This document shows positions 26,815-43,517 of a DNA stretch of 64,000 nucleotides, piece by piece. The stretch is from Hyphomicrobiaceae bacterium. GTDB taxonomy: Bacteria; Pseudomonadota; Alphaproteobacteria; Rhizobiales; Aestuariivirgaceae. The stretch is from contig OMIC01000024.1 of the NCBI GenBank assembly GCA_900298995.1, positions 1 to 64,000 on the forward strand, read 5' to 3'. Made by a program: the position numbers and the translations under genes. How positions within the stretch are numbered: the first letter of the stretch is position 1; the number at the start of each line of letters is the position of its first letter. A model generated the notes under the pieces. That model searched no databases. It saw only the letters and a program-made list of their open reading frames with translations, and was not told the DNA's origin.

Positions 26815-26881
26815 GGCGCCTTCCATTGTTTGCGGGCCAGTCTCCTGCATCCGGCACGGGGGCGTCAATCACCATGCGCTC

Positions 26882-26910
26882 TTGTGGTCACCGGCACCGG
26901 CGGTTTATAG
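26882..26910 (+). promoter_or_regulatory. candidate promoter of the class II aldolase gene
   Basis: TTGTGG (26882-26887), a 17-bp spacer and TTATAG (26905-26910), 45 bases before the aldolase ATG in the divergent gap. A CAATTG palindrome (26912-26917) follows directly and could be an operator. Confidence 0.4.
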
Positions 26911-26955
26911 CCAATTGATAATCCCCTCACCCGAAACAAGCGGACACAGTTCACC

Positions 26956-27693: not shown

Positions 27694-27698
27694 GCAGC

Positions 27699-29021
27699 GT
27701 GATCGCAGGCGTCTCTCCCCTCGTTGCGGAACTCAAGGCCCGAGCCGAGGCGGGCCGGCCCGTCACCATCGGGCTTGCGGGTTGCGGCCAGATGGGCACC
27801 GACATTGTTGTCCAGCTCGCCCGCATGCCGGGGCTGCGCCTCGGAGCCGTGGCCGAGATGCGTCCGCCCCAGGCGAAGGCGGCAGCCACGCTGGCGGGCT
27901 TCGCCGCCGAGCAGACGGTCTACGCCGAGACGCCCGCCGCCATCGATGCCGCCATCGAGCAGGGCCGGATCGCCATCACCTCGGAGCCCGAGACACTGGC
28001 CCGCGCCGGCCGTCTCGACGTCGTCATCGACGCCACCGGCAACCCCAACACCGGCACCCAGTTCGCATTGACCGCGATCGCGCATGGCAAGCACATCGTC
28101 ATGCTGAACGTCGAGGCCGACATCACCATCGGCCGTCACCTGCATGAGGCGGCCCGCCGCGCCGGTGTGGTCTATACGGGCGCGGCGGGGGATGAACCCG
28201 CGGCGGCGCTGGAACTGATCGGCTTTGCCCAGTCGATCGGACTCGAAGTGGTCTGCGCGGGCAAGGGCAAGAACAATCCGCTGAAGTTCGACGCCGTGCC
28301 GGCGGAATATGAAGCTGAAGCCGCAGCGCGCAACATGAATGCCCGCATGCTGGTGGAATTCGTCGATGGTTCCAAGACGATGGTCGAGATGGTCGCCATC
28401 GCCAACTGTACCGGGCTTGTACCGGACGTGCCGGGCATGCATGGGCCCGCAGCGACGCGCGATGAACTGGCCTCGGTGCTGATCCCCAAGGAACATGGCG
28501 GAGTGCTCTCGCGCAAGGGCTGCGTCGACTATTCGATCGGCAAGGGCGTGGCACCGGGCGTGTTCTGCATCGTGACCACCGATCACCCGCGCCTTCAGGA
28601 ACGCATGATCGACCTCAAGGTCGGCAAGGGTCCCTATTTCACGCTGTTGCGGCCCTATCACCTGACGAGCATGGAGGTGCCGCTGTCGGCGGCGCGCGCC
28701 GTGCTGCACCAGCAGGCCGACATGGTGCCGCTCGAGGGCCCGGTGGCCGAAGCCGTGACGCTGGCCAAACGCGATCTGACGCCGGGCGAGATTCTCGGCC
28801 GCATCGGCGAAACCGACTACCGCGCCTGGGCGATGACCCATGCGCAGGCACGCAGCGCCAATGCCATCCCGCTGGGCCTGGCGCAGGGCGCCAGGGTCGT
28901 GAAGCCGGTGAAGGCCGGCGAGCGGCTGACCTATGACAACTGCGTTCCCGACGACAGCCTGATCGTCACCCAGATCCGCCGCCGCCTAGATCAGCAGGAC
29001 GCGCGCCTCCACGCGCTCTGA
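27699..29021 (+). CDS. homoserine-dehydrogenase-like NAD(P) oxidoreductase with C-terminal SAF domain (COG4091 type)
   Basis: A 440-residue protein starting at GTG. The N-terminal Rossmann domain has GLAGCGQMGTD near residue 27 and VVIDATGNPNTG near 108. The C-terminal part (AQGARVVKPVKAGERLTYDNC, about 395-415) is an SAF domain, found also in sialic acid synthases and antifreeze proteins. Such proteins are annotated as predicted homoserine dehydrogenases, but they usually lie in sugar loci beside a kinase and a class II aldolase, as here. The real substrate is unknown, probably a sugar-derived aldehyde or acid. Confidence 0.8.
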   Translation: MIAGVSPLVAELKARAEAGRPVTIGLAGCGQMGTDIVVQLARMPGLRLGAVAEMRPPQAKAAATLAGFAAEQTVYAETPAAIDAAIEQGRIAITSEPETLARAGRLDVVIDATGNPNTGTQFALTAIAHGKHIVMLNVEADITIGRHLHEAARRAGVVYTGAAGDEPAAALELIGFAQSIGLEVVCAGKGKNNPLKFDAVPAEYEAEAAARNMNARMLVEFVDGSKTMVEMVAIANCTGLVPDVPGMHGPAATRDELASVLIPKEHGGVLSRKGCVDYSIGKGVAPGVFCIVTTDHPRLQERMIDLKVGKGPYFTLLRPYHLTSMEVPLSAARAVLHQQADMVPLEGPVAEAVTLAKRDLTPGEILGRIGETDYRAWAMTHAQARSANAIPLGLAQGARVVKPVKAGERLTYDNCVPDDSLIVTQIRRRLDQQDARLHAL

Positions 29022-29115
29022 CTTCTTCACAGCCCCGTGAGCCGCCGTCTCCAGGGGGACTGCGGCGCATGAAACTTGCATATTTTTCTTTCTTATCAGC
29101 GCCTTATAAAACTGC
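29022..29115. other. intergenic segment ending the aldolase operon
   Basis: Contains an imperfect GC-rich hairpin at about 29041-29066 (GCCGC arms with two mismatches) that could terminate the upstream operon, although the weak T-rich stretch only starts some 15 bases later. The sequence then becomes strongly AT-rich towards the next promoter. Confidence 0.3.
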
Positions 29116-29145
29116 TTGCATAATTATTCAGTAGTTGTATATATT
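29116..29145 (+). promoter_or_regulatory. promoter of the lipoyl/polyol operon with an internal palindrome
   Basis: TTGCAT (29116-29121), an 18-bp spacer and TATATT (29140-29145) in a strikingly AT-rich patch of an otherwise GC-rich window. The spacer contains TGcATAATTATtCA (29117-29130), a 12-of-14 palindrome centred between -35 and -10. That is the expected place for a repressor such as the SorC-family protein encoded third in the operon. Confidence 0.55.
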
Positions 29146-29175
29146 TCAGTCTCAGTTTGCAGATGATCCCCGGAC

Positions 29176-30612
29176 ATGTCCATCGCGTTGCCTGCCACCG
29201 GCCTCACCGATCCGACCAACCTCCCCGGCCTGAGACAGGCACTGGCGGCACTGGACCGGGATTCCCGCCTGGCACCCCTCGAAATTCGCCGGATCGAGAT
29301 TTCGGACACCGCTCATCTGCACGTCGCCAGTGCGGTGGAGGACCTATTCCGGGCCTCCGGAACCACAGCAGCGGCCCCCATTGTCATCCTCACGGACACC
29401 ACGGACATCCGCCGTGACGGCGAACTCCTGAGCAGCCTTGTCGAGCAACAGCTTGCCGGTCGGTACCCCGCGCGCCTCACCAGGCTGGACGATGGACACG
29501 GGACGCTCCACGCCGACGAAAACGTCCTCCACATGGCGACCGAAGCAGCCAGAGGGGCGAGCCTCATCATCACCATTGGCTCCGGCACCATGACCGACAT
29601 CGGCAAGGTCGCCGCCACCCGCAATGACGGCCTGCCGCATGTTGCGCTGCAGACGGCGGCTTCGGTTGACGGCTTCACCGACAATGTTTCGGTCGTGCTG
29701 CGCAATGGCGTCAAGCGCACGATACCCTCGGCATGGCCATCGGTCGTTCTCGCCGATGTCGTGACCATTGGCGGCGCACCTCCGGACATGAATACCGCAG
29801 GCTTCGGAGAGGCAGTCTCGCTGTTCACCGCACCAGCCGACTGGTATTTGTCGTTTCTTCTCGGCCTCGACAACAGCTTCCAGCCAGCCTCGCTTGCCAT
29901 GCTGCAGGCCGTGGCCGCAGAACCACCCGATTGGTCAGCCGGGATCGCCCGCGGCGAGCCTGCATCCATCAGTGCACTGACGAGACTTCTGGCATTGCGC
30001 GGCATCGTCTCGGGCGTGTCCAACACGACTGCTTGTCTTTCCGGCGTGGAGCATGTGATCAGCCACATGCTCTACCTGCATCACGCCGCCAAGCACCAGC
30101 CGATCGGTCTTCATGGCGCACAGGTCGGCGTCGCGAGCCTCGTCGCGGCACGGCTGTGGCGGGAAGCCATCGATACAGACCTGATCCGCCAGGCCCGACT
30201 TACTCCGCCCGACCCCGCCCGAACCGCGCGTGAGATCCGCGAGGCGTTTGGCCATCTCGGCGATGTCATCGTCGAGGAATGCTGGCGCGATGCTCAGGCC
30301 AAGCACCAGCTCGTCACGCAGAACTGGCAGCGCATCGAACAGGTGGTCGCTAACTGGCCGCGCCATGCCTCCGAATTCGGCAAGCTCGTCATTCCTGCTG
30401 AGACGCTGCGCAAGGCGCTGCGCGCCTCGGGCGGGCCCGCGACTTTCCAGCGCCTTGCACCAGCAATCTCGCGTGACCTGACGTTGTGGGCGGTGCGCCA
30501 CTGCTTCCGCATGCGCAATCGCTTCAACCTCATCGATCTTCTCGACATGCTCGGTCTGTGGACGAACGAGCGCATCACCTGGGCCCTGGCCGATACGATG
30601 GAGGAGGCATGA
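29176..30612 (+). CDS. sn-glycerol-1-phosphate dehydrogenase-like (AraM/EgsA family) enzyme, copy 1
   Basis: A 478-residue iron-containing-alcohol-dehydrogenase-fold protein of the glycerol-1-phosphate dehydrogenase branch. NAD-binding IGSGTMTDIGK lies near residue 135. Metal ligands are probably the acidic residue in AGFGEAV, the His in SGVEHVISH and the His in GLHGAQVG. It is longer than AraM (about 390). In a locus with a polyol kinase it more likely oxidises a polyol phosphate to a ketose phosphate than makes lipids; that is inference. It is the first gene of the operon and overlaps the kinase start region. Confidence 0.8.
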   Translation: MSIALPATGLTDPTNLPGLRQALAALDRDSRLAPLEIRRIEISDTAHLHVASAVEDLFRASGTTAAAPIVILTDTTDIRRDGELLSSLVEQQLAGRYPARLTRLDDGHGTLHADENVLHMATEAARGASLIITIGSGTMTDIGKVAATRNDGLPHVALQTAASVDGFTDNVSVVLRNGVKRTIPSAWPSVVLADVVTIGGAPPDMNTAGFGEAVSLFTAPADWYLSFLLGLDNSFQPASLAMLQAVAAEPPDWSAGIARGEPASISALTRLLALRGIVSGVSNTTACLSGVEHVISHMLYLHHAAKHQPIGLHGAQVGVASLVAARLWREAIDTDLIRQARLTPPDPARTAREIREAFGHLGDVIVEECWRDAQAKHQLVTQNWQRIEQVVANWPRHASEFGKLVIPAETLRKALRASGGPATFQRLAPAISRDLTLWAVRHCFRMRNRFNLIDLLDMLGLWTNERITWALADTMEEA

Positions 30613-32126
30613 TGCCGGTTCGCGATCTGGTCATCGGGATTGATTGCTCGACAACTGCATCGAAAGCAGTGGTGTGGGACGCTCAGGGACGCGCCATCGC
30701 GGTGGGACGCCGTGCCTACAGGCTCAGCCATGTGCGATCCGGATGGGTGGAGCAGAATGCCGGTGACTGGTGGCTGGCCACGACAGGCGCACTTGCCGAT
30801 GCGGTGACTCAGGTCGATGCCGTGCGCATCGCCGGATTGGCCATTACCCACCAGCGCGAAACATTCGTCTGCCTCGACAAGGCAGGCGAGGCGATCCGGC
30901 CAGCCATCACCTGGATGGATGTGCGGGCAACGCAGGAAGTGAGCGAATACGGAACACCCGAGGTGCATCGCCTCACCGGAAAACCCCCGAATCCGACACC
31001 GGCCTGGTACAAGCTTCTCTGGCTGCTGAAGCATGAGCCCGAGACCCTCGCACACACCGCGCGGGTGGTGGATGTCGCAGGGTATCTCGTCCAGAAACTC
31101 ACCGGCGAGTGGGCCACGTCCTGGGCCTGCGCCGATCCTCTCGGCATCGTCGACCTGCAGCGTTTCGATTACGATGACGGACTGCTTGCCGCGGCGGGGC
31201 TTGACCGCTCGAAGGTGAGCCGTCTTCTGCCGCCTGGCGCCATTGCCGGCGGGCTGCTGCCGGCCGTGGCAGCTGCCGCCGGCCTACCCGCCGGCCTTCC
31301 CGTGGTGGTGGGAGCGGGCGATGGCCAGTCGGCGGGACTTGGCTGCAACGTGACGCGTCCAGGACGCGCCTATCTCAACCTCGGGACTGGAACAGTCTCG
31401 GGCGTCCATGCGGAAAGCTACAGCCACGCGATGGCCTATCGCACCATGGGAGGCCCCGTCCCGGGCACCTACATCCTCGAGACCTTCATTGGCGGCGGCA
31501 CCCAGAACGTCGTGTGGTTTGCCGAACAACTCGGACTGCCCGACCATGCGGTGATCACCACGGGCTGTCCGCCCGAACAGGTGCTCGAGGCGGCAGCGAC
31601 AGACATTCCGCCCGGCGCGGGCGGCCTCCTGTGCCTGCCCTACTGGACCGGGGCCATGACCCCGTACTGGGATGGCCATGCGCGGGGCGCCTTCGTCGGC
31701 CTGTCCGGGGTTCACAGCAAGGCCCACATGTATCGGGCCGTCCTCGAAGGCATGGCGTTTGAACAACGCCTGCTCACCGACGGCGTCGAGGCGGCAACCG
31801 CACAGCCCATCGACGAGATCCTGATGCTGGGCGGCGGATCGAGAAGCCCGCTGTGGTGCCAGATCATCGCGGATGTTCTGGGCCGCAGCGTGAAACTGGT
31901 ACGCGAACAGGAGAGCACGGCGCTTGGCGCCGGCATTCACGCCGCTGCAGCCCTCGGCCTTCATGCGAACCTGACGGCGGCGGCCGATGCGATGACCGGA
32001 ATCGAGACCGGCTACGAACCGGTTGCCGCTGCGCATGCCCGGTACTCCGATATCTTCGAGGCCTATTGCAGCATGTATCCTGGCCTCAAGACCACATTCA
32101 GGATGCTGGCGGAGAAGATGCCATGA
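30612..32126 (+). CDS. FGGY-family carbohydrate (polyol) kinase, copy 1
   Basis: A 504-residue kinase of the xylulokinase/glycerol kinase superfamily. It opens with VIGIDCSTTASKAVVWD (phosphate loop), has TWMDVRA near residue 100, GGTQNVVW mid-protein and a C-terminal ATP site with MLGGGSRSPLW. GAGGAGG at 30601-30607 favours the ATG at 30612; an ATG at 30609 would overlap the upstream stop as ATGA. It is clearly paralogous to the kinase at 40662, each placed beside a glycerol-1-phosphate-dehydrogenase-like gene. Confidence 0.88.
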   Translation: MPVRDLVIGIDCSTTASKAVVWDAQGRAIAVGRRAYRLSHVRSGWVEQNAGDWWLATTGALADAVTQVDAVRIAGLAITHQRETFVCLDKAGEAIRPAITWMDVRATQEVSEYGTPEVHRLTGKPPNPTPAWYKLLWLLKHEPETLAHTARVVDVAGYLVQKLTGEWATSWACADPLGIVDLQRFDYDDGLLAAAGLDRSKVSRLLPPGAIAGGLLPAVAAAAGLPAGLPVVVGAGDGQSAGLGCNVTRPGRAYLNLGTGTVSGVHAESYSHAMAYRTMGGPVPGTYILETFIGGGTQNVVWFAEQLGLPDHAVITTGCPPEQVLEAAATDIPPGAGGLLCLPYWTGAMTPYWDGHARGAFVGLSGVHSKAHMYRAVLEGMAFEQRLLTDGVEAATAQPIDEILMLGGGSRSPLWCQIIADVLGRSVKLVREQESTALGAGIHAAAALGLHANLTAAADAMTGIETGYEPVAAAHARYSDIFEAYCSMYPGLKTTFRMLAEKMP

Positions 32127-33151
32127 AGCGGCAGTCCACAGCCGAACTGGCGCGGCGCTACGCCACCACTGACATCGACCAATTGCGCCAGATGACGCGT
32201 GCCGCGCGCCTGCATCACATTCAGGGCGCTCGTCAGACCGAGATCGCAGAGAAGATGGGCATTTCACAGGCCGGCGTGTCGCGCCTCCTGCGCATGGCCG
32301 AGGAGCATGGCATCATCCGCTCCATCGTCGTGCCGCCAGAAGGTCTCTATCCCGATCTCGAGGACAGCCTGGCCAAGGCCTATGGCCTCGACGCCGTCTA
32401 TGTCGTCGACATTGACCCCGCTGAAGACAGTGTAGCCCAAATCCTGGGCGCTGCCGCCGCAAACTGCCTGGCGGGCGAGTTTGCGGGCGGTCCCGTTCTG
32501 GGCTTCACCTCCTGGAGCACGACATTGCGCGAAATGGCCCGGCTGATCGAGCCGCGCATGTCGAGCCGCATCAAGCACGTGGTCGAGACGCTCGGTGACC
32601 TCGGCTCACCCATGCTGCAACATGAAGCCGATGTTGCCACACTGCGGATGGCACAGGCGTTCAACGCCGAGGCCGTGTTCCTGCGCGCGCCTGGCGTGGC
32701 GCGCAACCCAGCAATGCGCCAGGCCACATTGGCAGATGCACATCTCCAGAAGGCGATGCGCCTGCTCGACGAGGTTGACATTGTCTTCACGGGGATCGGA
32801 CCGGCTGACTTTCATGGCCCTCTTGAAGAGACCGACAATTTCTTCACGGCCGAACAGCTGGCCGAGGTGCGAGCGTCCGGAGCGGTGGGTCAGCTGCACC
32901 AACGTTTCATCAACCGGGCCGGCCAGCCGGTGAAGACACCCCTCGATGACCTGGTCATTGGCATCTCGCTCGAACAATTGCGCAACGCGGGGCGACGAAT
33001 CGCCGTGGCAGGCGGCAAGGAAAAGCACGAGGCGCTTGCAGCGGCACTCGCCGGAGACTGGATCGACGTGCTCGTCACAGATGTCGAAAGCGCCAATGTG
33101 CTGCTGGCCTCGGCCAGCACGCCTCAAGATCAAGCGAAAGGCATGCCATGA
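32123..33151 (+). CDS. SorC/DeoR-family sugar-binding transcriptional regulator 1
   Basis: A 342-residue regulator. The N-terminal helix-turn-helix (TEIAEKMGISQAGVSRLLR, near residues 38-56) is followed by the SorC effector domain, which binds phosphorylated sugars. It overlaps the kinase stop by 4 bases and the E1 alpha start by 4, so regulator and enzymes are made from one message. It probably controls the promoter at 29116 in response to a phosphorylated intermediate. Confidence 0.9.
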   Translation: MKRQSTAELARRYATTDIDQLRQMTRAARLHHIQGARQTEIAEKMGISQAGVSRLLRMAEEHGIIRSIVVPPEGLYPDLEDSLAKAYGLDAVYVVDIDPAEDSVAQILGAAAANCLAGEFAGGPVLGFTSWSTTLREMARLIEPRMSSRIKHVVETLGDLGSPMLQHEADVATLRMAQAFNAEAVFLRAPGVARNPAMRQATLADAHLQKAMRLLDEVDIVFTGIGPADFHGPLEETDNFFTAEQLAEVRASGAVGQLHQRFINRAGQPVKTPLDDLVIGISLEQLRNAGRRIAVAGGKEKHEALAAALAGDWIDVLVTDVESANVLLASASTPQDQAKGMP

Positions 33152-34134
33152 CAAGACCAAACGACCTTCTCATCGAGATGCAGACGCGGATGCTGCGCAT
33201 CCGCAAATTCGATGAGCGCGCCTCCAAGATGGTCAAGCGTGGCGAGATTCCCGGTACCGTTCACACCTCGATCGGCCAGGAAGCGCAGGTGGTGGGCGCC
33301 TGCATGGCGCTGGCCGAGGGCGACTACATGACGGGCAATCACCGCAGCCACGGACACCCGATCGGCAAGGGCGCAGCGCTGGGGCCGCTCATGGCGGAAC
33401 TCACGGGCAAGGCAACCGGGGTTTGTGGTGGCAAGGGGGGGTCGATGCATCTCGCCGACTTCAAGGTCGGGAGCCTTGGTGAATCCGGCATCGTTGGCTC
33501 GTCAATTCCGATCGCCACCGGAGCCGCTCTCTCGTCGAAGGTGCTGGGCACGGGCCGCGTCGCACTCGCCTTCTTCGGTGATGGCGCCGCCAATCAGGGT
33601 TGCCTCTACGAGGCCATGAACCTCGCATCCGTCTGGGGACTGCCCATCGTCTTTCTGTGCGAGAACAACCAGTATGCGCTCTCAACCCCGGCCCACACAG
33701 TGACCGCCGGGGTTATCGCCGAACGCGCGCCGGGTTTTGCCATGCCGGGCATTCGCGTCGAGGATGGCCAGGACGTGCTGAAGGTCCACGACGCGGTGAA
33801 GACGGCTGTTGACCGGGCCCGGGCCGGCAAGGGGCCTAGCCTTGTCGAGGTGGTGACATACCGCTTCAACGAGCATTCAGAGGGCCTCCGCCTTGGCACG
33901 GACTACCGAAATCCGGCCGAGAAGGAAGCCTGGATGAAGCGCGATCCCGTCAAACTGTTCCGGGCCTATCTGACCGACAACGGCATCACCGACAGCGCCG
34001 CCCTCGACGCACTGGAGGCAGAGGTGACAGCAGAAGTGGAGGCTGCCGTGCAATTCGCCGCAGACAGCGACTATCCGGATTCATCCGTCGCCTTCAAGCA
34101 TCTCTACACCGAACCCTTTGGAGCAAATCTGTGA
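33148..34134 (+). CDS. TPP-dependent dehydrogenase E1 alpha subunit (acetoin/2-oxoacid type)
   Basis: A 328-residue E1 alpha. The thiamine diphosphate motif is complete: GDG at 144-146 through NN near 174. SMH (near 99) and GSSIPIATGAAL are also conserved. Similar in length to AcoA and PdhA. With the beta subunit it would decarboxylate a 2-oxoacid or cleave an acyloin and pass the acyl group to a lipoyl arm. Unusually, no E2 acyltransferase follows, only a single lipoyl domain. It overlaps its neighbours by 4 bases on both sides. Confidence 0.9.
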   Translation: MTRPNDLLIEMQTRMLRIRKFDERASKMVKRGEIPGTVHTSIGQEAQVVGACMALAEGDYMTGNHRSHGHPIGKGAALGPLMAELTGKATGVCGGKGGSMHLADFKVGSLGESGIVGSSIPIATGAALSSKVLGTGRVALAFFGDGAANQGCLYEAMNLASVWGLPIVFLCENNQYALSTPAHTVTAGVIAERAPGFAMPGIRVEDGQDVLKVHDAVKTAVDRARAGKGPSLVEVVTYRFNEHSEGLRLGTDYRNPAEKEAWMKRDPVKLFRAYLTDNGITDSAALDALEAEVTAEVEAAVQFAADSDYPDSSVAFKHLYTEPFGANL

Positions 34135-35144
34135 CAGTCATGAGCTATCTCGGAGCCATCGGCGCCGCACAGCGCGAGGCGATGGAGACCGACCCCCGCG
34201 TCATCATCATGGGCGAGGATGTCGAGGCCAATGTCTACGGCACCATGGGTGGTGGAAAATCACGCGCCGACAAGGGAGACTTCCTGCAGCTGTTCGGTGC
34301 CAGCCGCATCCGAAACACGCCAATCTCCGAAGAAATCATGGTGGGCGCGGCGGCGGGCGCGGCCATGACCGGCCTCAGGCCCATCGTCGACCTGTCCTAC
34401 TCGAGTTTCCTCTACATGGCGATGGACCAGTTTGTGAACCAGGTGGCGAAGAACCGTTACATGTTCGGTGGCCAGGCCTCCCTGCCGGTGGTGTTCCGCT
34501 CTGCCATGTTCTTCGGCCTCAACACAGGCGCTCACCATTCTGACCGGCCCTACCCGATGTTCATGAACGTGCCGGGCCTCAAGATCATGGTTCCAGCGAC
34601 CCCGTCGGATGCCAAGGGGTTGCTGCGTACCGCCGTCGACATGGATGATCCGGTGCTGTCCTTCGAAGCCTGCATTCTGTGGGGCCTCAAGGAAGAGGTC
34701 GACGAACAGGAATACCGGATCCCCTTCGGTGTAGCCCGCACGCACCGTGAGGGAACCGATGTCACCATCGTGGGCATTTCCACCGGTGTCCACGCAGCCC
34801 TGCAAGCCGCGCAGAAACTCGAGGCAGAGGGCATCTCCGCCGCGGTAATCGATCCGCGAACGCTGGTACCTCTCGACTCGGAGACCATTCTCAGGTCGGT
34901 CGCCCGCACAGGCAGGCTCGTCATCGTCGATCCAGCGCACACCACCTGCAGCGCGGCGGCAGAAATCTCGGCAATCGTCGCAGAACAGGCCTTCGACTGT
35001 CTCAAGGCACCGATCATGCGCGTGACGACGCCCGACACGCAGATCCCCTTCAGTCCGGCCATCGAGAAGCAACTCTATCCCGATGCCGCCAAGACCATCG
35101 CCGCCGTACGGAAGACGATGGACGCACGCGCACGCGCCGCCTGA
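34131..35144 (+). CDS. TPP-dependent dehydrogenase E1 beta subunit (acetoin/2-oxoacid type)
   Basis: A 337-residue transketolase-like subunit. Conserved parts are GEDVEANVYG, TPISEEIMVGAAAGAAM with the TPP-activating Glu, and a C-terminal domain with RLVIVDPAH. It starts at GTG inside the E1 alpha stop (GTGA), with GGAG 8 bases before. It pairs with the alpha subunit as an alpha2beta2 E1. The lipoyl-domain gene follows after 33 bases. Confidence 0.9.
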   Translation: MTVMSYLGAIGAAQREAMETDPRVIIMGEDVEANVYGTMGGGKSRADKGDFLQLFGASRIRNTPISEEIMVGAAAGAAMTGLRPIVDLSYSSFLYMAMDQFVNQVAKNRYMFGGQASLPVVFRSAMFFGLNTGAHHSDRPYPMFMNVPGLKIMVPATPSDAKGLLRTAVDMDDPVLSFEACILWGLKEEVDEQEYRIPFGVARTHREGTDVTIVGISTGVHAALQAAQKLEAEGISAAVIDPRTLVPLDSETILRSVARTGRLVIVDPAHTTCSAAAEISAIVAEQAFDCLKAPIMRVTTPDTQIPFSPAIEKQLYPDAAKTIAAVRKTMDARARAA

Positions 35145-35177
35145 GACCAACCCCTCTGAACCAGCGAGAAGACACAC

Positions 35178-35420
35178 ATGGCACGTATCAAGGTTTTGCT
35201 CCCGCAATGGGGCATGGGCATGAGCGAGGGCAAGATCATCAAGTGGCACAAGGCGGTTGGTGACATGGTCAGCGAGGATGAGGCGCTGGCTGAGGTCGAG
35301 TCCGAAAAGTCGACCGACACCATCGAATCGCCGGGTGCCGGCAGGCTGAGCGAGATCCTCGTCCAGGAGGGCGAGACCGTCGCCGTTCGCACTGCCGTCG
35401 CCATCATCGTCAAGGAATAA
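35178..35420 (+). CDS. stand-alone lipoyl-domain carrier protein
   Basis: Only 80 residues: one complete lipoyl/biotinyl domain and nothing else. The Lys to be lipoylated is K44 in ESEKSTD, at the tip of the beta-hairpin; ESEKS replaces the ETDK of standard E2. The N-terminal LPQWGMGMSEGKI resembles E2 lipoyl domains of acetoin and pyruvate dehydrogenases. There is no subunit-binding domain, no linker and no acyltransferase core, and the stop is followed by a separate gene, so it is not a frameshifted E2. It probably works as a free swinging-arm carrier, like GcvH. Confidence 0.88.
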   Translation: MARIKVLLPQWGMGMSEGKIIKWHKAVGDMVSEDEALAEVESEKSTDTIESPGAGRLSEILVQEGETVAVRTAVAIIVKE

Positions 35421-35443
35421 ACCGTCAAGCAAGGACCACAGAC

Positions 35444-36298
35444 ATGCCCTGGACCGACCCCCGAAGACTCGTTGAGGACGCTCGAAAGGGCGGTTATGCC
35501 ATCGGCGCATTCAATATGCACAATGTTGAGACCACCGAGGCACTCGTATGGGCCGCAGAGATCGCAAAGGCTCCTGTGTTCCTGCAGATCGGCCGCGCCA
35601 TCGTTCCACACATGGGCGTTCGCAAGGCTTTCGAAATGACCAAGAGGGTTGCCGAAGAGTCAGATGCCCACTTCGTCGTTCATCTCGACCACGGCCCGTG
35701 GGACGAATGTCTTGAGGCTATCAAACTCGGCTTCAACTCAATCATGTATGATGGCGCGCATCTTCCCTTCGAAGACAACATAGAGACTACGCGTCGGATC
35801 GTGGAGATAGCGCATGACTTCGGCATTCCTGTCGAAGCTGAACTCGGCAAGATCCCAGATGCCGGGGAAAAGGTGAATTGGGCGGACTATTACACCGATG
35901 TCGGAGAGGCCAAGCGTTTCGTCGAAGAAACCGGCGTCGACTATCTGGCCATCTCGGTTGGAATCGTGCATGGCGTCGTTCCGGGCCTTGCGCCGGAGCC
36001 GCTTGCCATCAGCCGGATCGAGGAGATCAGACAGGCGACAGGCATCCCGCTTGTGCTGCATGGGGCATCCGGCATTCCGACCGATGAGGTTCTCGCGGCG
36101 CGTGCGGCCGGCGTACACAAGTTCAATGCCGACACCGACCTCCGCCATGCGTTTCGTGCCGGTCTTGAGGCCGTATTCGCACAGGGTGACCGGCAACTCG
36201 AGGAGGCAATGGCCGAGGGCCGCAAGCGCATGGTGAGTGCGACGATCGAAAAGATGACGCTTTACGGCTGCGCCGGAAAGGCGCTGCGGCAGGCGTGA
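35444..36298 (+). CDS. class II fructose/tagatose-bisphosphate-type aldolase
   Basis: A 284-residue zinc aldolase of the FbaA/GatY/KbaY family. D82 and H83 are in HLDHG, H176 in GIVHG and H206 in LHGASG, matching the catalytic Asp and the three zinc His of GatY. VEAELGKI near 130 is also conserved. Standard enzymes have GTVHG and HGGSG, so two positions near the active site differ, suggesting a substrate other than fructose or tagatose bisphosphate. A retro-aldol cleavage giving DHAP is likely. AAGGA precedes the ATG. Confidence 0.88.
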   Translation: MPWTDPRRLVEDARKGGYAIGAFNMHNVETTEALVWAAEIAKAPVFLQIGRAIVPHMGVRKAFEMTKRVAEESDAHFVVHLDHGPWDECLEAIKLGFNSIMYDGAHLPFEDNIETTRRIVEIAHDFGIPVEAELGKIPDAGEKVNWADYYTDVGEAKRFVEETGVDYLAISVGIVHGVVPGLAPEPLAISRIEEIRQATGIPLVLHGASGIPTDEVLAARAAGVHKFNADTDLRHAFRAGLEAVFAQGDRQLEEAMAEGRKRMVSATIEKMTLYGCAGKALRQA

Positions 36299-37005
36299 GC
36301 ACGGTCTTCGGTGGTCCTGTGCAGCTGGAGCCGGACATCACGATGGACGTCCGATCGAGGCTGTCGCCTGCCGCCGACATGGAGCGGGTTTCCCGACAAC
36401 TTTGCCTGATGCAGCCGGGACATGTGGGCAGCATGCGGGTCTTCCGTCCGCTGCCGACCGCCGCCTTCGCGCCGCGTGACCTATCGCTCGCGGGCTACGC
36501 AGTGGCGGCAAAGCGTTTATGCGAAGACGGTTTCACGCCCGTCGAACGCAGGACAGGCGGACAACTCGCCGTTTATGACGACACCGCTCTGATCATCGAT
36601 CTCGTGGTGGCCCACCCGCAACCGCGCCTTGACGTCATTGAGCGGTTCAGGAGCTTCGCCGCAGCGATCTGCAGCGCTCTCGCTGGCTTCGGCATCGACG
36701 CCGGCGTCGGCCCGGTTCCAGGGGAATATTGCCCGGGCGAGTACAGCGTGAACGCCGGCGGCCTGCGGAAAATCGCCGGGCTGGCCCAGCGCATCGTTCG
36801 CTGCGGCTATCATCTCGGTGCGGTCATCGCGGTTGAACCCTCCCCGCGCGTGCAAGCGGCGACGGCACGGGCATATGACGCCCTGGGACTGCATCTGAAC
36901 GCCACAAGTTTTGGCGCAGCGGTGGACTCCGGGAAGACCGTAGGCTTTGTCGACTTGCGGGACGCCCTCGTGGGTGAGATGCTCCGCCGGATCGAAGTGA
37001 TATGA
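36295..37005 (+). CDS. lipoate-protein ligase / octanoyltransferase-like protein (LplA/LipM/LipB superfamily)
   Basis: A 236-residue protein starting at GTG inside the aldolase stop. RRTGGQLAVYDD (85-96) corresponds to the RRxSGGGAVYHD box of LplA/LipM. GEYSV...RKIAGLAQR (148-166) corresponds to the segment carrying the catalytic Lys (K159) of this superfamily, and C146 lies where LipM-type octanoyltransferases have their catalytic Cys. GYHLGA matches the following HHG segment. Identification is from motifs only. Next to a free lipoyl domain, the obvious role is to attach lipoate or octanoate to K44 of that carrier. Confidence 0.7.
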   Translation: MSTVFGGPVQLEPDITMDVRSRLSPAADMERVSRQLCLMQPGHVGSMRVFRPLPTAAFAPRDLSLAGYAVAAKRLCEDGFTPVERRTGGQLAVYDDTALIIDLVVAHPQPRLDVIERFRSFAAAICSALAGFGIDAGVGPVPGEYCPGEYSVNAGGLRKIAGLAQRIVRCGYHLGAVIAVEPSPRVQAATARAYDALGLHLNATSFGAAVDSGKTVGFVDLRDALVGEMLRRIEVI

Positions 37006-37089
37006 CAGGGATGGTGTCTGGAAGCGACGGGAGATGCTGCACTGCAATATCTCGTTTGCATTGCGAAAGTTGTTTCCTGCTCATGGGTG

Positions 37090-37129
37090 GTGTTGACAGA
37101 CCACGGATTCCCCCGCACTTTTGCAACAC
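37090..37129 (+). promoter_or_regulatory. candidate promoter/operator region of the ABC transporter operon
   Basis: The 175-bp gap has a perfect TTGACA at 37093-37098. The hexamer 17 bp further (CACTTT) is a poor -10, so the exact promoter is uncertain. GTGTTG (37090-37095) and CAACAC (37124-37129) are inverted half-sites 28 bases apart that bracket the promoter and could bind one of the SorC regulators. Confidence 0.35.
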
Positions 37130-37180
37130 TCGGATAACAAATGCGCCATCCGGTGGCCGGCGCAAGGTACAAGGACCCGC

Positions 37181-38119
37181 ATGAGTTCGAACACCGCCAG
37201 CCTGCTGCCTCGCGAGACTGCATCGCCGGAGAGCAAACGCGGCTGGCTGCCGAGCTGGCTGTCTTCCGAGCATCCCTTCCCATGGCTCTTTCCCGCCGCG
37301 GCGCTGATGGTCGTGTTCGGAATCTATCCATTGCTCTACGCGCTCACACTTTCGCTCTACAAGAAAAACGCCGCCACCCGGAAGATGGTGTTCGCGCCGG
37401 ATCACAACTGGACCAAGATACTGTCCGACGAACGCGTCTGGAACGCGCTTTTCAATACGTTTCTTTACACGGGCATCGCACTGGTGTTTCAGCTTGTCCT
37501 TGGGATGCTGATTGCCCTGCTGCTCGACTCGGACCGCAAGGGCTACGGCATATTGCGCGCCATGATGACCCTGCCACTGGTCATTCCGCCAGCGGTCACT
37601 GCCATGATGTTCCTGCTCATGCTCAACGGATCTTTCGGGGTGCTGAGCCGGGGGCTTATCGCCATGGGACTTCTTCCGACCGGCTTCTCGATCCTCGGAA
37701 ACGCCAGCACGGCGATGGCCGGTGTGTTGCTGGCCGAGATCTGGCAGTGGACACCCTTCATGGTCCTCATCATGCTCGCGGGACTGCGCTCCCTGCCGAA
37801 GGAGCCCTTTGAGGCTGCCGCCATCGATGGTGCCAGCGGCGTCCAGGCCTTCTTCAGGCTCACGCTGCCGATGATGTCCAAGGTCATCGCGATTGCCGTG
37901 CTCATTCGCGGCATCGATCTCTTCCGCGCCTTCGACTACGTGAAGGTGATGACCGATTCCGGTCCTGGCACGGCCACCGAAACGCTTACCTCCTACGCCG
38001 GACGCATCTATTTCGGAAACGCCGATTTCCCCTACGCGTCAACCATTGCGCTCCTCACTCTCATTATCGTGATCGTTGTTTCATCCGCCTTCATGAAGGC
38101 GTTCAAGGTCAAGCTGTGA
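37181..38119 (+). CDS. sugar/polyol ABC transporter permease 1 (MalF/UgpA type)
   Basis: A 312-residue inner-membrane permease with six predicted helices and the cytoplasmic EAA loop (EAAAIDGASGVQAFFRLTLP). The N-terminus is long and hydrophilic. AAGGA precedes the ATG at 37181. It begins a transporter set completed by the second permease, the binding protein and the ATPase at 43518. Confidence 0.9.
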   Translation: MSSNTASLLPRETASPESKRGWLPSWLSSEHPFPWLFPAAALMVVFGIYPLLYALTLSLYKKNAATRKMVFAPDHNWTKILSDERVWNALFNTFLYTGIALVFQLVLGMLIALLLDSDRKGYGILRAMMTLPLVIPPAVTAMMFLLMLNGSFGVLSRGLIAMGLLPTGFSILGNASTAMAGVLLAEIWQWTPFMVLIMLAGLRSLPKEPFEAAAIDGASGVQAFFRLTLPMMSKVIAIAVLIRGIDLFRAFDYVKVMTDSGPGTATETLTSYAGRIYFGNADFPYASTIALLTLIIVIVVSSAFMKAFKVKL

Positions 38120-39027
38120 TGGAAGGCTCCCGCCCGCTTCGCATCCTCCGGGACCTCGCGGCAATCACGGTCACGGGGCTATTCATGTTCCCGATCTTCT
38201 GGTGGGCGCTGACATCGATCAAGCCGATCTCGGCAGTGTTCGACAAGGACCGCGTCAATTTCTTCGATTTCGTACCGACCTTCATCAATTACGGCGTCAC
38301 GCTGTTTGGCCAGTCACGCTCGCAACTCGCCATCGACGAGGGACTGGGCATGGGCGTCGCAGGCGCCGACGCCTATGACTCGCGCCAGTCGATACTCGAG
38401 TCGATCATCATCTCGCTGGGTGCCACGACGATCACAATGGCGGTATCCGTGTTCGCCGCCTATGCCATCTCTCGCATGGCCTTCCGGGGCCGAGGGCATT
38501 ACCTCAACTGGGTTCTCGGCCAGCGCTTCATGCCACCGATTGCCATCCTGGTGCCGCTCGTCACCATCTATAAGACGGCAGGCCTTCGCGACACCGACAA
38601 TCTCTACATGGGCTACCTCGGCCTCATGATGATCTACGCACTCATGAACCTGCCCATTGCGGTGCTGCTGATGAAATCCTTCCTCGACGACGTTCCGAAG
38701 GATGTCGACGAGGCTGCAATGATTGACGGCGCCACCCGCTGGCAGACCTTCCGCAAGGTTGTACTGCCCATGGTCAAGGGCGGCGTAGCTGCCTCGGCTG
38801 TTCTCGTTTTCATATTCTCCTGGACGGAATTCCTGCTGTCTCTGTTCCTGACAACGGACATTCGCACCGTACCGGTGAAGATCCAGACCTTCGTGACATC
38901 GACGGGCAATGAATGGGGCTTCATCGCCGCCCTGGGAACGGCGGCGATCATCCCGAGCTTCATCTTCATTCTGCTCGTGCAAAAGCATCTGGTGCGCGGC
39001 CTCACTCTTGGCTCCCTGAAAGAGTGA
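38119..39027 (+). CDS. sugar/polyol ABC transporter permease 2 (MalG/UgpE type)
   Basis: A 302-residue permease with the EAA motif EAAMIDGATRWQTFRKVVLP and six hydrophobic segments. It has an insert of about 40 residues after the first helix (NYGVTLFG to YDSRQSILES). I use the ATG at 38119, one base overlapping the previous stop; a GTG at 38116 is possible. Confidence 0.9.
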   Translation: MEGSRPLRILRDLAAITVTGLFMFPIFWWALTSIKPISAVFDKDRVNFFDFVPTFINYGVTLFGQSRSQLAIDEGLGMGVAGADAYDSRQSILESIIISLGATTITMAVSVFAAYAISRMAFRGRGHYLNWVLGQRFMPPIAILVPLVTIYKTAGLRDTDNLYMGYLGLMMIYALMNLPIAVLLMKSFLDDVPKDVDEAAMIDGATRWQTFRKVVLPMVKGGVAASAVLVFIFSWTEFLLSLFLTTDIRTVPVKIQTFVTSTGNEWGFIAALGTAAIIPSFIFILLVQKHLVRGLTLGSLKE

Positions 39028-39071
39028 GAACGTGCGCGAGAAACTAGGCTCAAACCCATGGGAGGATCCTT

Positions 39072-40592
39072 ATGAGCTTTAAAGACCACGACAAATTGAC
39101 CTTCATTGCCGATGCGGCCCGGGACTTTTCTGCCCGGCGCATTTCCAAGCGAGACTTCCTCAAGAAGATGAGCCTGGCCGGTGTTGGTTTCTCGGCGTTC
39201 AATCTCGGCCTGCTCGGCTCCACGCGTCCGTCGCGGAACCGCAGCTTTGGTATCGGCGATGCTGCCTATGCGCAGGATGCCGATGTCACGAAGTGGCTGA
39301 AGGACGTCTCGGGCCCGTTCAAGGGCACGAAGATCCGCTACACCTCGGAAGCGACCCCGCCGACCGTCGTTCTCGACAAGCTGAAGGGCGAGTTCACCGA
39401 GGCGACCGGCATCGAAGTCGAGATCGAAATCGTGCCGCTCGAGCAGGTTCTCGCGAAGGCCACGCAGGACGTGCAGGGCCAGCTCGGCTCCTACGACCTC
39501 TACTATCTCGACCAGTCCTGGGTTGCGACCTTCGCGCAGGACACAGTCGATCCGATTGCCTACTACAAGGAAAAGCCGGACCTCGCCATGCCGGGCATGG
39601 ATTGGGACGACTTCTCCAAGCCGCTCGTTGATGGTCTTGCCGTGTATGACGGCCACTGGGTTGGAATTCCATTCGACATTCCGATCATGGTGACGATGTA
39701 CCGGAAGGACATCCTCGAGAAGCACAAGATCGCTCCGCCGAACACGGTTGACGAATTCGTCGCTGCGGTGAAGATGATCACCGAGGCCGAAAAGGCGAAC
39801 GGCATGTATGGCACCGGTCTTCAGGCCAAGTCGGGTCACTACTCGCTTGAGTGCGACTGGACCCAGGTGGTTTGGAACAACGGCGGCTCGATCTTCACCA
39901 AGGACAAGAAGTTCTCGGGCAATGACGAAGCTGCTGTCGGCGGCCTGAAGATCTATCAGGAACTGCTGAAGAACGCCCCGCCGGAGTCCACCAACTCGAC
40001 GTGGGACGGTCAGTTCCAGATGATGGCCTCGGGCCAGTGCGCGCTCGTCAATTCCTGGGACGAGTTCTTCCCCGGCCTCGACGCCGACGGCTCGAAGGTG
40101 CAGGGGCTGTGGGAATGCAAGCGTCCGATCCGTGGTGCTTCCTACCGCTCGCCGGGCGATGCAGGTTTCGGAGAAATTCCGAACCCGGCTCACCAGGGTG
40201 GCTCGATCCTTGGGCTGTCGAAGTACTCCAAGAACGTCGACGCGGCCTGGATCTTCATGCAGTGGGCCTGCTCGAAGGACATCATGACCCGCTGCACCCT
40301 TGGCGGCGGCTTTGCTCCGATGCGCATCTCGTCGTTCAACGACCCGCGCGTCAAGGCAAAGGAAGTTGTGGGTCCCGGCACGACGCGCCACCTGCCCATC
40401 GTTCTCGAGACCATCAACAACGACATGGCGTCCGAGCCCGACATGCCCCTGTGGGCCGGTTTCTCGAACAACGAGATCCCGGTTGCGCTGGGCAAGCTGC
40501 TCACCGGCCAGGACTATGGTGGTGACGCCAAGAAGTGCATGGACGACGTGGCGGCCCAGATCGACAAGGCCGTCGCCGAAGCCGGACTCTAA
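39072..40592 (+). CDS. extracellular solute-binding protein of the sugar/polyol ABC transporter
   Basis: A 506-residue periplasmic binding protein (bacterial extracellular binding family 1). The N-terminus has SKRDFLKKMSLAGVGFSAF, which looks like a twin-arginine signal with KR in place of RR, ending near AAYAQDA. GGAGGATCC precedes the ATG, the strongest ribosome site in the operon, as expected for an abundant protein. It is longer than maltose-type binding proteins (about 400). A stem-loop follows the gene. Confidence 0.9.
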   Translation: MSFKDHDKLTFIADAARDFSARRISKRDFLKKMSLAGVGFSAFNLGLLGSTRPSRNRSFGIGDAAYAQDADVTKWLKDVSGPFKGTKIRYTSEATPPTVVLDKLKGEFTEATGIEVEIEIVPLEQVLAKATQDVQGQLGSYDLYYLDQSWVATFAQDTVDPIAYYKEKPDLAMPGMDWDDFSKPLVDGLAVYDGHWVGIPFDIPIMVTMYRKDILEKHKIAPPNTVDEFVAAVKMITEAEKANGMYGTGLQAKSGHYSLECDWTQVVWNNGGSIFTKDKKFSGNDEAAVGGLKIYQELLKNAPPESTNSTWDGQFQMMASGQCALVNSWDEFFPGLDADGSKVQGLWECKRPIRGASYRSPGDAGFGEIPNPAHQGGSILGLSKYSKNVDAAWIFMQWACSKDIMTRCTLGGGFAPMRISSFNDPRVKAKEVVGPGTTRHLPIVLETINNDMASEPDMPLWAGFSNNEIPVALGKLLTGQDYGGDAKKCMDDVAAQIDKAVAEAGL

Positions 40593-40606
40593 GCACAACA
40601 ACGCTG

Positions 40607-40632
40607 CGGAGGCGGCCTCACGGCCGCCTCCG
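40607..40632 (+). terminator. 11-bp GC-rich stem-loop after the binding-protein gene
   Basis: CGGAGGCGGCC and GGCCGCCTCCG form a perfect stem around the loop TCAC, followed by TTCTTGTCT. The partial U-tract suggests a leaky terminator that raises binding protein over the downstream kinase and dehydrogenase, a common arrangement in ABC operons. It could equally protect the upstream mRNA. Confidence 0.75.
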
Positions 40633-40661
40633 TTCTTGTCTCAAAGCGAATAGCAGGCCTC

Positions 40662-42188
40662 ATGCGCCGCGACCTGGTTATCGGCATCGATTCTTCGACG
40701 ACGGCCACCAAGGCCATCGCGTTCGACCGCCGCGGCAGAATCGTCGCGGAGGGCCGCGCCCCCGTTCCCTTGTCAACGCCGCATCCAGGCTGGTTTGAGC
40801 AGGAGGTGTCGGACTGGACCGGCGCTGCCGCCACCGCCCTGAAGCAACTCACCCGCAAGATCGACGCCAGCCGGATTGCAGGGCTCGCCATTTCAAATCA
40901 GCGCGAAAGCTTCGCACAGTTCGACAACAAGGATCGCGCGCTCCGCCGGGGAACACTGTGGCTCGACGAGCGCGCCCAGACGGAAGTGAGCGATCTCTGC
41001 GCCGAGCTTGGCACCGACGCCATTCACCGAATATCCGGCAAGCCCCCCGATGTGACACCCTGCCTGTACCGTTGCCGCTGGTTCTCCACCCACATGCCGA
41101 AAATGTGGGCCAGAACCGCGAAGACCGCGGAGGTGCATGGCATCCTCACCCATTTCCTTACCGGCCAGTGGACGACCTCCATCGCCTCGGCAGACCCGAT
41201 GGGCCTGATCGATGCGGGTGCCTATGACTGGTCGGATGTTCTTCTCAAGGCCGCCCACCTCACGCGCGCCCAGTTGCCGAGCCTGCGGCGTCCGGGGGAG
41301 ATCATGGGCAAAGTCTCGGACAGTGCGGCGAAAAAGACAGGCCTCCGGGCAGGCACGCCGGTCATTGCCGGAGGTGGTGACGGCCAGTGCGCCGGAACAG
41401 GCGCCAATATCTTTCTTGCCGGCCGCGCCTATGTGAATCTGGGAACGGCCGCTGTCTCCGGCAGCTATGGCAAGACCTACGCCACCGACCGCGCCTTCCG
41501 CACCATGATGGCGGTCGGCGAGGAGGGATTTTCCTTCGAGACGGCGATCCGCACCGGTACCTTCCTCATCAATTGGATGGTGGAGCGTCTGTTCAACGTC
41601 AATCCTGCGCGGAACCCGGCAATCCTCAAGAAACTCGAGGCGGAGGCGGCCGCCTCCCCGATCGGCGCCAATGGCCTGGTGCTCGTGCCCTACTGGTCAG
41701 GCTGCATGACGCCCTACTGGGATTCGGGGGCGCGCGGCGTCATCGCCGGCCTGTCCGGCAATCACAGCCGCGGCGATGTCTACCGCGCACTGCTCGAGGG
41801 CGTGGCGCTGGAACAGGCGATGATGACCAACAAGGTGGCGGGAGCCACTGCGCCCATCACCCACTTCGCGGCGGTGGGCGGCGGCTCGCGCTCCGATCTC
41901 TGGTGCCAGATCCTCGCAGATGCGTCCGATCGCGAGGTGAAGCGCCTGGAAACGGCGGAGGCCTCGGCACTTGGCGCCGCCATGGCCGCCGCGCGCGGTG
42001 CCGGCTGGTTCAAGACGGTGGCTGCCGCCTCGGCGGCCATGTCGGGCAGACCATCGCGAACCTTCCGTCCGCGCAAGTCAGAAGCCCGACGCTACCGTGA
42101 ACTTCTCACCATCTATTCCGAACTCTGGCCGCAGCTCTCGGACTGGAACCGGAGGCTCGTGGCCTTTGCCAATGGCTCTGCCCGATGA
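40662..42188 (+). CDS. FGGY-family carbohydrate (polyol) kinase, copy 2
   Basis: A 508-residue kinase starting VIGIDSSTTATKAIAFD, closely patterned like the kinase at 30612: both share GWxEQ, IAGLAI..QRE, GKPP, a GDGQ motif and YW.G.MTPYWD. Its ATP site has AVGGGSRSDLW. It overlaps the next dehydrogenase by 4 bases, as copy 1 does with its partner. Two kinases around one transporter suggest two stereoisomeric or successive substrates. Confidence 0.88.
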   Translation: MRRDLVIGIDSSTTATKAIAFDRRGRIVAEGRAPVPLSTPHPGWFEQEVSDWTGAAATALKQLTRKIDASRIAGLAISNQRESFAQFDNKDRALRRGTLWLDERAQTEVSDLCAELGTDAIHRISGKPPDVTPCLYRCRWFSTHMPKMWARTAKTAEVHGILTHFLTGQWTTSIASADPMGLIDAGAYDWSDVLLKAAHLTRAQLPSLRRPGEIMGKVSDSAAKKTGLRAGTPVIAGGGDGQCAGTGANIFLAGRAYVNLGTAAVSGSYGKTYATDRAFRTMMAVGEEGFSFETAIRTGTFLINWMVERLFNVNPARNPAILKKLEAEAAASPIGANGLVLVPYWSGCMTPYWDSGARGVIAGLSGNHSRGDVYRALLEGVALEQAMMTNKVAGATAPITHFAAVGGGSRSDLWCQILADASDREVKRLETAEASALGAAMAAARGAGWFKTVAAASAAMSGRPSRTFRPRKSEARRYRELLTIYSELWPQLSDWNRRLVAFANGSAR

Positions 42189-43504: not shown

Positions 43505-43517
43505 GATCTGTAATCAC

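Follow-up and report, generated by a model that had tools for sequence, protein, structure and literature searches.

A putative split, E2-less dehydrogenase cassette with a free-standing lipoyl carrier in a Hyphomicrobiaceae bacterium

Comparison of the cassette with described lipoyl-dependent systems

Acetoin dehydrogenase (AcoA, AcoB, AcoC, and AcoL) and the pyruvate dehydrogenase complex are among the closest described relatives of a gene cassette located at positions 29176–37005 of a 64,000-nucleotide stretch of DNA from a Hyphomicrobiaceae bacterium (contig OMIC01000024.1; hereafter the window), which encodes an E1 dehydrogenase, a free-standing lipoyl carrier, and a LipL-like protein. 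The E1 alpha and E1 beta subunits of the acetoin system belong to one superfamily with those of the cassette, and in NCBIfam the carrier is best matched by the lipoyl portion of acetoin dehydrogenase E2 (68 bits against a cut-off of 307). The cassette differs in that it has no AcoC-type or other full-length E2, its lipoyl domain is a separate 80-residue protein, and it adds genes for a kinase, a glycerol-1-phosphate-dehydrogenase-like (G1PDH-like) enzyme, an aldolase, and a SorC regulator. The Pelobacter acetoin cluster includes the lipoyl synthase gene acoS, as stated in an excerpt of PMC3543383. Likeness to the pyruvate dehydrogenase complex lies in E1 alpha, whose nearest NCBIfam family is pyruvate dehydrogenase E1 alpha (322 bits, below the cut-off of 394) and whose nearest structures are of the same kind, whereas the cassette lacks an E2 with a subunit-binding domain and has a catabolic gene neighborhood. 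An E2 with lipoyl, subunit-binding, and catalytic core domains is not encoded with this E1, only a free lipoyl domain.

In the glycine cleavage system, a small free-standing lipoyl protein, GcvH, acts in trans to link the enzymes. Unlike GcvH, the carrier matches Biotin_lipoyl (PF00364) and has as its partner an E1 with thiamine diphosphate (ThDP) domains; at E 0.001 no GCV_H match was obtained for it, only Biotin_lipoyl and a sub-cut-off Biotin_lipoyl_2 match. LipL and LipM are transferases that have a Cys nucleophile and a functional Lys. The last protein of the cassette shares with them the LplA-B catalytic domain (PF21948, above cut-off) and the conserved Cys and Lys, but it is encoded in a catabolic cassette and its best NCBIfam match, octanoyl-[GcvH]:protein transferase, reaches 42.8 bits, far below the cut-off of 400.

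Judged by gene content, the cassette is an eight-gene unit on the forward strand. The first three genes encode a G1PDH-like Fe-ADH of 478 residues (29176–30612; Fe-ADH_2 1e-18), which matches the NCBIfam glycerol-1-phosphate dehydrogenase at 3e-27 and 95 bits (cut-off 413), an FGGY carbohydrate kinase (30609–32126; FGGY_N 3e-48, FGGY_C 2e-36), taken as 505 residues from the start at 30609 although the longest open reading frame (ORF) begins at 30486, and a SorC/DeoR-type sugar-binding regulator of 342 residues (32123–33151; Sugar-bind 6e-51). They are followed by E1 alpha (328 residues, 33148–34134; E1_dh 1e-78), E1 beta (337 residues, GTG start, 34131–35144; Transket_pyr 2e-31, Transketolase_C 1e-36), the free-standing lipoyl carrier (80 residues, 35178–35420; Biotin_lipoyl 9e-17 over residues 6–77), a class II aldolase of the FbaA/GatY type (284 residues, 35444–36298; F_bP_aldolase 2e-81), and a protein like the LipL/LipM-type lipoyl (octanoyl) protein transferases (236 residues, GTG start, 36295–37005; LplA-B_cat 1e-10). 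The three E1 domains are all above their Pfam cut-offs, which identifies a heteromeric E1 with ThDP-binding domains. The initial annotation, made from the sequence before any search, had described the last five genes in this order, separated by gaps of less than 35 bases or overlapping, and had placed the lipoyl lysine at K44. ORF, Pfam, and translation data agree with it: the five ORFs are intact, the junctions from E1 alpha to the LipL-like gene are, in order, a 4-base overlap, a 33-base gap, a 23-base gap, and a 4-base overlap, and counting in the translation puts the lysine of the ESEKST turn at residue 44. However, its limits of 33148–37005 made the unit too short on the left, the end being set at 29176 by comparison with relatives.

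The absence of an E2 core from these genes, also claimed at the outset, held up. Pfam scans of the 17 cluster proteins encoded at 25420–44570 found no E2 core, with or without a subunit-binding domain, and no AcoC-type E2 (alpha/beta-hydrolase or acyltransferase) beside the E1. Genome-wide, 2-oxoacid_dh matched three proteins at E 0.001: SucB (C24), a C32 protein with a full-length core, interpreted as the pyruvate dehydrogenase E2, and a partial core on C21, in which the match covers positions 168–231 of 232. The SucB-type E2, one of the two full-length cores in the genome, lies in the window at 16337–17536 (forward strand; 2-oxoacid_dh 5e-85) and has lipoyl and E3_binding domains. Downstream of it, lpdA (18913–20295, forward strand; 38% over 484 residues to a rhizobial dihydrolipoyl dehydrogenase) encodes an E3 that is a possible shared partner in trans. 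The carrier must act in trans, as had been proposed. The cassette appears to encode a familiar kind of enzyme in a split form that lacks E2.

The partial core belongs to a second set of E1 alpha, E1 beta, E2, and SorC genes in the same genome (L020:6128-10199 on C21), which has no DRL gene, encoding a DXR-II-type oxidoreductase, beside it and whose E1 belongs to a clade of DRL-linked E1s. Its E2 retains lipoyl and E3-binding domains, but the core is degenerate and a DHRALDG-type motif was not seen by eye. A short lipoyl/biotin match on C8 was considered as a second carrier and rejected, as its neighbors look, by eye, like biotin carboxylase/5-oxoprolinase-type genes. Alignments of E1 beta, examined for a lost subunit-binding contact, gave no clear result.

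Related cassettes and the spread of free carriers

The initial annotation knew of no other system of this make-up, but related cassettes are carried by plasmids of Shinella and Rubrobacter, and an E1 with a free carrier also occurs in Sphingomonadales. Plasmid matches to E1 alpha came from Rubrobacter indicoceani (71%), two Shinella records (72%), and Sphingobium, Novosphingobium, and Croceicoccus (52–58%). Nine plasmid records match at at least 51% identity over at least 97% of the length, and in all eight that were viewed (the second Shinella record being excluded) a lipoyl gene of 79–80 residues directly follows E1 beta, with no full-length E2 match beside the carrier. Four further records at 51–53% identity cover only 84–86% of E1 alpha; among these, Mesorhizobium L246 has no lipoyl match in the stretch scanned and Pseudoroseomonas has a DRL operon with a full E2. 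Among the matches listed for the 297 genomes of the order and 385 of the class, none to E1 alpha exceeds 52% besides its own gene.

On plasmid pcSHIWSC3 of Shinella sp. WSC3-e, E1 alpha, E1 beta, and an 80-residue lipoyl protein are encoded together with glpD, the aldolase, a 225-residue E2 core, ATP-binding cassette (ABC) transporter genes, a G1PDH-like enzyme, and an FGGY kinase; the opposite strand carries lipA along with genes for a SorC regulator and a further FGGY kinase. The E2 core is a stand-alone, plain 2-oxoacid_dh domain (PF00198 4e-65) with 37% identity to the window SucB, 32% to the C32 E2, and 41% to a stand-alone core at locus L064. A formaldehyde dehydrogenase gene lies a few kb from the Shinella cassette kinase (L232:2709-3899); as a speculation, retro-aldol cleavage of a tetrulose phosphate would release formaldehyde. 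The plasmid of Rubrobacter indicoceani (Actinomycetota) has a row of E1 alpha, E1 beta, a 79-residue lipoyl protein, ABC genes, glpD, glycerol kinase, and the aldolase, and the G1PDH-like enzyme and a kinase are elsewhere on it. On this 52-kb plasmid no E2 core or lipoate transferase is annotated or was found by tblastn, and lipA was not found. An alpha/beta-hydrolase adjoining the Rubrobacter kinase (L234:18957-19868) gave a weak match to an AcoC-type E2 core (30% over part).

Identity to the window proteins is 71–72% for E1 alpha and 72–73% for E1 beta in both relatives, 63% for the carrier, 77.5% (Shinella) and 59% (Rubrobacter) for the aldolase, and 52–53% for one kinase of each. The co-occurrence of E1 alpha, E1 beta, a free lipoyl gene, and the aldolase is more than chance, as plasmids of a different family and a different phylum carry them together at 59–78% identity.

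In a tree of 60 E1 alpha sequences, the window, Shinella, and Rubrobacter proteins group together (100/99) and then join Sphingobium and Croceicoccus of the Sphingomonadales (100/99), and all five have a free carrier of 79–80 residues. The stretches around the Sphingomonadales E1-carrier pairs contain no E2 core. The tree has free carriers at two more positions, L035/L039 (carrier read in L076, a match only in L072) and L067/L068 (carrier read in L067), which makes three label changes. For this tree, 41 DRL-linked sequences were thinned to 18, with L020 counted as DRL-linked, and N_L062 was left out. L002, in which no E1 alpha was found, was also dropped. An earlier tree with 42 DRL-linked sequences has long branches (1.99 for the window), and the 60-sequence tree is better for its nearer relatives. 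One E1 clade is accompanied by a free lipoyl carrier, and the arrangement recurs in distant bacteria. At L072:9313 and L076:9452-9700, the free lipoyl protein (82 residues in L076) is encoded with E1 alpha and E1 beta but without a LipL-like match, next to genes that appear TauD- and VOC-like by eye; their free carrier appears to be of separate origin.

The initial annotation had assigned the cassette its own lipoylation enzyme, and the LipL-like protein is indeed the second protein of lipoyl-transferase type in the genome; the other, on C29, has the one remaining LplA-B domain, matches better, and is probably LipB. The Cys and Lys of the LipL-like protein are invariant in an alignment of five sequences and align with those of the solved LplA/LipL-type proteins 2p0l and 2p5i. 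Searches for this protein gave matches in five of the 297 order genomes (E 0.001) and in four of the 385 class genomes (1e-8), its own included in each. E1 genes lie near the match in four (L064, L066, L067, and L068) of the six other genomes viewed, of seven, and not in L063 or L065, the latter a 4.6-kb contig; on the Rhodococcus plasmid L062 the LipL-like gene is also beside E1 genes. L064 has a row of E1 alpha, E1 beta, the stand-alone core, and the LipL-like gene, and in L067 a 76-residue lipoyl protein takes the place of the core. From these gene rows, a private lipoylation gene appears to be a recurrent, but not a fixed, companion of such E1s.

Proposed working of the cassette and alternative explanations

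With about even confidence, the cassette is read as a split complex, an E2-less relative of the acetoin/pyruvate dehydrogenase type, whose carrier would work in trans and pass its acyl group to coenzyme A (CoA) on an E2 core supplied elsewhere during the breakdown of a polyol. The polyol setting suggested by the initial annotation fits the kinases, the G1PDH-like enzymes, the SorC regulator, and the sugar ABC genes. Judging from their families, the kinase and the G1PDH-like enzyme may convert an imported polyol to a ketose phosphate that the class II aldolase could cleave. The ThDP enzyme E1 alpha/beta would then cleave an acyloin or 2-oxo product and transfer the acyl group to the K44-bound lipoyl arm of the carrier, which the LipL-like protein, by its family, Cys, and Lys, may help to octanoylate or lipoylate. 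Transfer to CoA would take place on a separate E2 core, for which Shinella has a dedicated gene and the present genome may use a housekeeping E2, and LpdA would reoxidize the carrier. An unusual acyl acceptor had been envisaged initially as one option beside a housekeeping E2, but the stand-alone E2 core of Shinella points to CoA as the ordinary destination of the acyl group. For the window cassette, either SucB or the C32 E2 has to provide the core, or the acyl group would end on something other than CoA.

Several points weigh against this reading. The acyl transfer from the free carrier to either full-length E2 is a step that we infer. The Shinella and Rubrobacter plasmids carry E1 alpha, E1 beta, the lipoyl gene, and the aldolase, but neither gave a match to the LipL-like protein, which is thus no constant component. 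Identity is just 43% (Rubrobacter) and 37% (Shinella) for the G1PDH-like enzyme and just 34% and 28% across the two for SorC; these values and the differing gene order show that conservation does not extend to the cassette as one block. The two plasmids have glpD genes, and none was found in the window. The Rubrobacter alpha/beta-hydrolase is a possible AcoC-type or stand-alone unloading enzyme.

A first alternative, considered fairly unlikely, is that the acyl group never reaches CoA, the carrier passing it to another acceptor or to hydrolysis to the acid, so that an E2 is unneeded. The lack of an E2 core in the window cassette, on the Rubrobacter plasmid, and around the Sphingomonadales pairs is consistent with this, but the stand-alone core in the Shinella gene row, and the core and LipL-like gene together in the row of L064, both suggest CoA transfer.

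Cleavage of 1-deoxy-D-xylulose 5-phosphate (DXP) by the cassette E1 is an unlikely alternative, in which DRL would work backwards from methylerythritol phosphate and the E1 would split the resulting DXP into an acetyl-lipoyl carrier and glyceraldehyde 3-phosphate. It draws on a gene missed by the initial annotation, that of a DXR-II (DRL)-like oxidoreductase of 440 residues directly upstream of the cassette (27699–29021, forward strand; DRL_cat 5e-65). Operons of DRL, E1, and E2 are common: among the best 80 of 251 DRL relatives, 19 loci have E1 alpha and E1 beta within the available flank, all 19 with an E2 match. Moreover, 14 of the 16 non-self matches of the window E1 alpha in the order genomes (E ≤ 1e-88) are in DRL loci, the DRL-clade E1 of this same genome, on C21, stands without a neighboring DRL and with a degenerate E2 core, and in Shinella some 20 kb of plasmid lies between the cassette E1 genes and an operon of DRL, E1, E2, and lpdA. 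DXP was first favored as the substrate of this E1, since the best matches in the order are mostly DRL-linked, and was lowered after both trees. DRL-linked E1 alpha sequences, the C21 gene included, form one clade (42 sequences, 100/100; 19 sequences, 100/99 in the 60-sequence tree); the window E1 alpha lies outside it on a long branch (approximately unbiased test, p 6e-6) and in a separate clade once its nearest relatives are added. The Rubrobacter plasmid has no DRL match in the three stretches scanned and none annotated. In addition, the window genome has one DRL match, no DXR-I match, and IspG, so that DRL is the sole DXR candidate found and may be there for isoprenoid synthesis.

It is quite improbable that the cassette is a relic, inactive or in decay after losing its E2 core. 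The dedicated core in Shinella, absent here, and the degenerate core at the C21 locus of the same genome would fit a relic. On the other hand, all cassette genes are open and overlap or nearly touch as in live operons, the E1, carrier, and aldolase have kept the identity given above to relatives in another family and phylum, and other loci exist with a free carrier and no E2 beside it. Barely credible is a role of the LipL-like protein as a substitute for E2, an acyltransferase unloading the carrier. Its gene follows the aldolase as the E2 core gene does in Shinella, and its conserved Cys could carry an acyl group, but the relatives with names are lipoyl/octanoyl transferases, L064 has both a core and a LipL-like gene, and Shinella has lipA, also a lipoylation gene, instead.

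DRL operons, the flanking locus, and implications

The window DRL matches DRL_cat with 218.8 bits (cut-off 27), and its residues 8–431 of 440 are homologous to the solved DRL enzyme (PDB 3upl/3upy; 505 bits to 3upl) of the DXR-II family, which is treated along with the DLO1/DLO2 families in excerpts of PMC3847144. Elsewhere, DRL, E1 alpha, E1 beta, and E2 form a row in annotated plasmid loci of Pseudoroseomonas, Terrarubrum, Rhizobium, and Sinorhizobium, together with a glucitol-type phosphotransferase system (PTS), or ABC genes and a sugar kinase, plus a sugar-binding regulator. A glucitol PTS or PfkB kinase accompanies 15 of the 19 DRL-E1 loci, and 39 of the 80 DRL loci have no E1, GutB, PfkB, FGGY, or FucA match; L025 has DRL and an FGGY kinase with no E1 match. 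Such rows, accompanied by a SorC regulator and either a glucitol-type PTS or ABC genes plus a PfkB kinase, are frequent and mark a candidate catabolic route for methylerythritol/deoxyxylulose (loci L023, L024, L026, L027, L097-L101, L121, L126, L131, L132, L135, L138, L139, L145, L146, L150, L151, L153, L155, L156, and L204-L216), an arrangement that the window DRL lacks. In the three Firmicute loci viewed (L238 Listeria innocua, L239 Enterococcus raffinosus, and L240 Ligilactobacillus salivarius), DRL occurs with glucitol PTS genes and no E1, and the Ligilactobacillus salivarius locus also has a fructose-6-phosphate aldolase and a transketolase.

These operons may represent an undescribed, widespread route of 2-C-methylerythritol catabolism, a proposal made tentatively and at somewhat less than even confidence. 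A glucitol-type PTS or a kinase would deliver methylerythritol 4-phosphate, DRL acting backwards would convert it to DXP, and the acetoin-type E1/E2 would split DXP, an acyloin, into acetyl-CoA and glyceraldehyde 3-phosphate. Literature searches in one open-access library found no account of methylerythritol catabolism, of a free lipoyl carrier paired with an E1, or of a cassette of this make-up. PMC3847144, in the portions available, treats DXR-II as biosynthetic, reports DXR-II in Finegoldia without the rest of the pathway, and does not mention E1-E2 or PTS neighbors; "catabol" and "transporter" have no occurrences in its main text. Among the order genomes, DXR-II-type genes (best match of at least about 212 bits and 489–495 bases long) are present in 46 of the 57 without DXR-I and in 9 of the 240 with it, and a purely catabolic role is weakened because DXR-II mostly stands where DXR-I is missing. 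One reversible DXR-II may serve both the catabolic and the biosynthetic roles. Genome G104 of the same genus has IspG, no DXR-I match, and just a weak DRL match (2e-9), leaving its DXR unaccounted for. As the window E1 falls outside the DRL-linked clade, the DRL operons and the window cassette are neighbors and not yet one story.

The cassette lies within an older flanking locus. To its left are an FGGY-type kinase (25420–26868, reverse strand; FGGY_C_2 3e-47), which is kept in related loci, a FucA-type class II aldolase (26956–27693, forward strand; Aldolase_II 2e-55), which adjoins DRL in related loci, and DRL. The first genes to its right encode two ABC sugar permeases (37178–39027, forward strand; BPD_transp_1), followed by a solute-binding protein, a second FGGY kinase, a second G1PDH-like enzyme, and a MalK-type ATPase (39072–44570, forward strand; Pfam), in the same order as in L078, L079, L223, and L228. 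The pair of kinase and G1PDH-like genes is thus present twice in the window, in the cassette and in the flanking locus. In three distinct related loci (L078, L079, and L223), with genes at 75–91% identity to those of the window, the permeases closely follow DRL with nothing between, the spacing to the first permease being 160–170 bases in L078 and L079; L221 is the same place as L078, and L121 and L225 are likewise one place. In 8 of the 8 related loci searched, two of which are the same place, the match to the DNA left of the cassette extends to near the end of DRL, and upstream of the first permease there is a 23-base match to L079 and a likeness to L078 by eye only. At 37040–37150, upstream of this permease, TTTGCA...GCAAA-like repeats that resemble the L078 spacer by eye form a possible operator.

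From this comparison, the cassette is read as an accessory, probably acquired, set for polyol catabolism. Not all of the locus comparisons favor acquisition, as seven other related loci (L080, L081, L082, L220, L222, L228, and L105) have no clean junction between DRL and the first permease: about 1 kb separates them in L228 and about 6 kb, including a MalK-like gene, in L081 and L082, no permease is present in the available stretch of L080, L220, and L222, and in L105 DRL and an FGGY kinase precede the permeases. By these data, the cassette appears to have been either inserted here or lost from those relatives, and both directions fit. Nor does composition mark it as foreign, since its third-position GC (0.68–0.82) is below that of FucA and DRL (0.84–0.87) but like that of the right flank (0.77–0.82).

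If the proposed methylerythritol route is true, DXR-II would have a catabolic role in many bacteria and would have been recruited for isoprenoid synthesis upon loss of DXR-I. The DRL-E1-E2 operons would then explain, in a way open to testing, the presence of DXR-II alongside DXR-I and, in Finegoldia, its presence in the absence of the remaining pathway. If the split-complex reading of the cassette is true, E1/E2/E3 machines would not always be swinging-arm megacomplexes, as the carrier would be diffusible and the E2 core separate or shared, and the cassette would provide a simple system in which to ask why such a complex is normally assembled.

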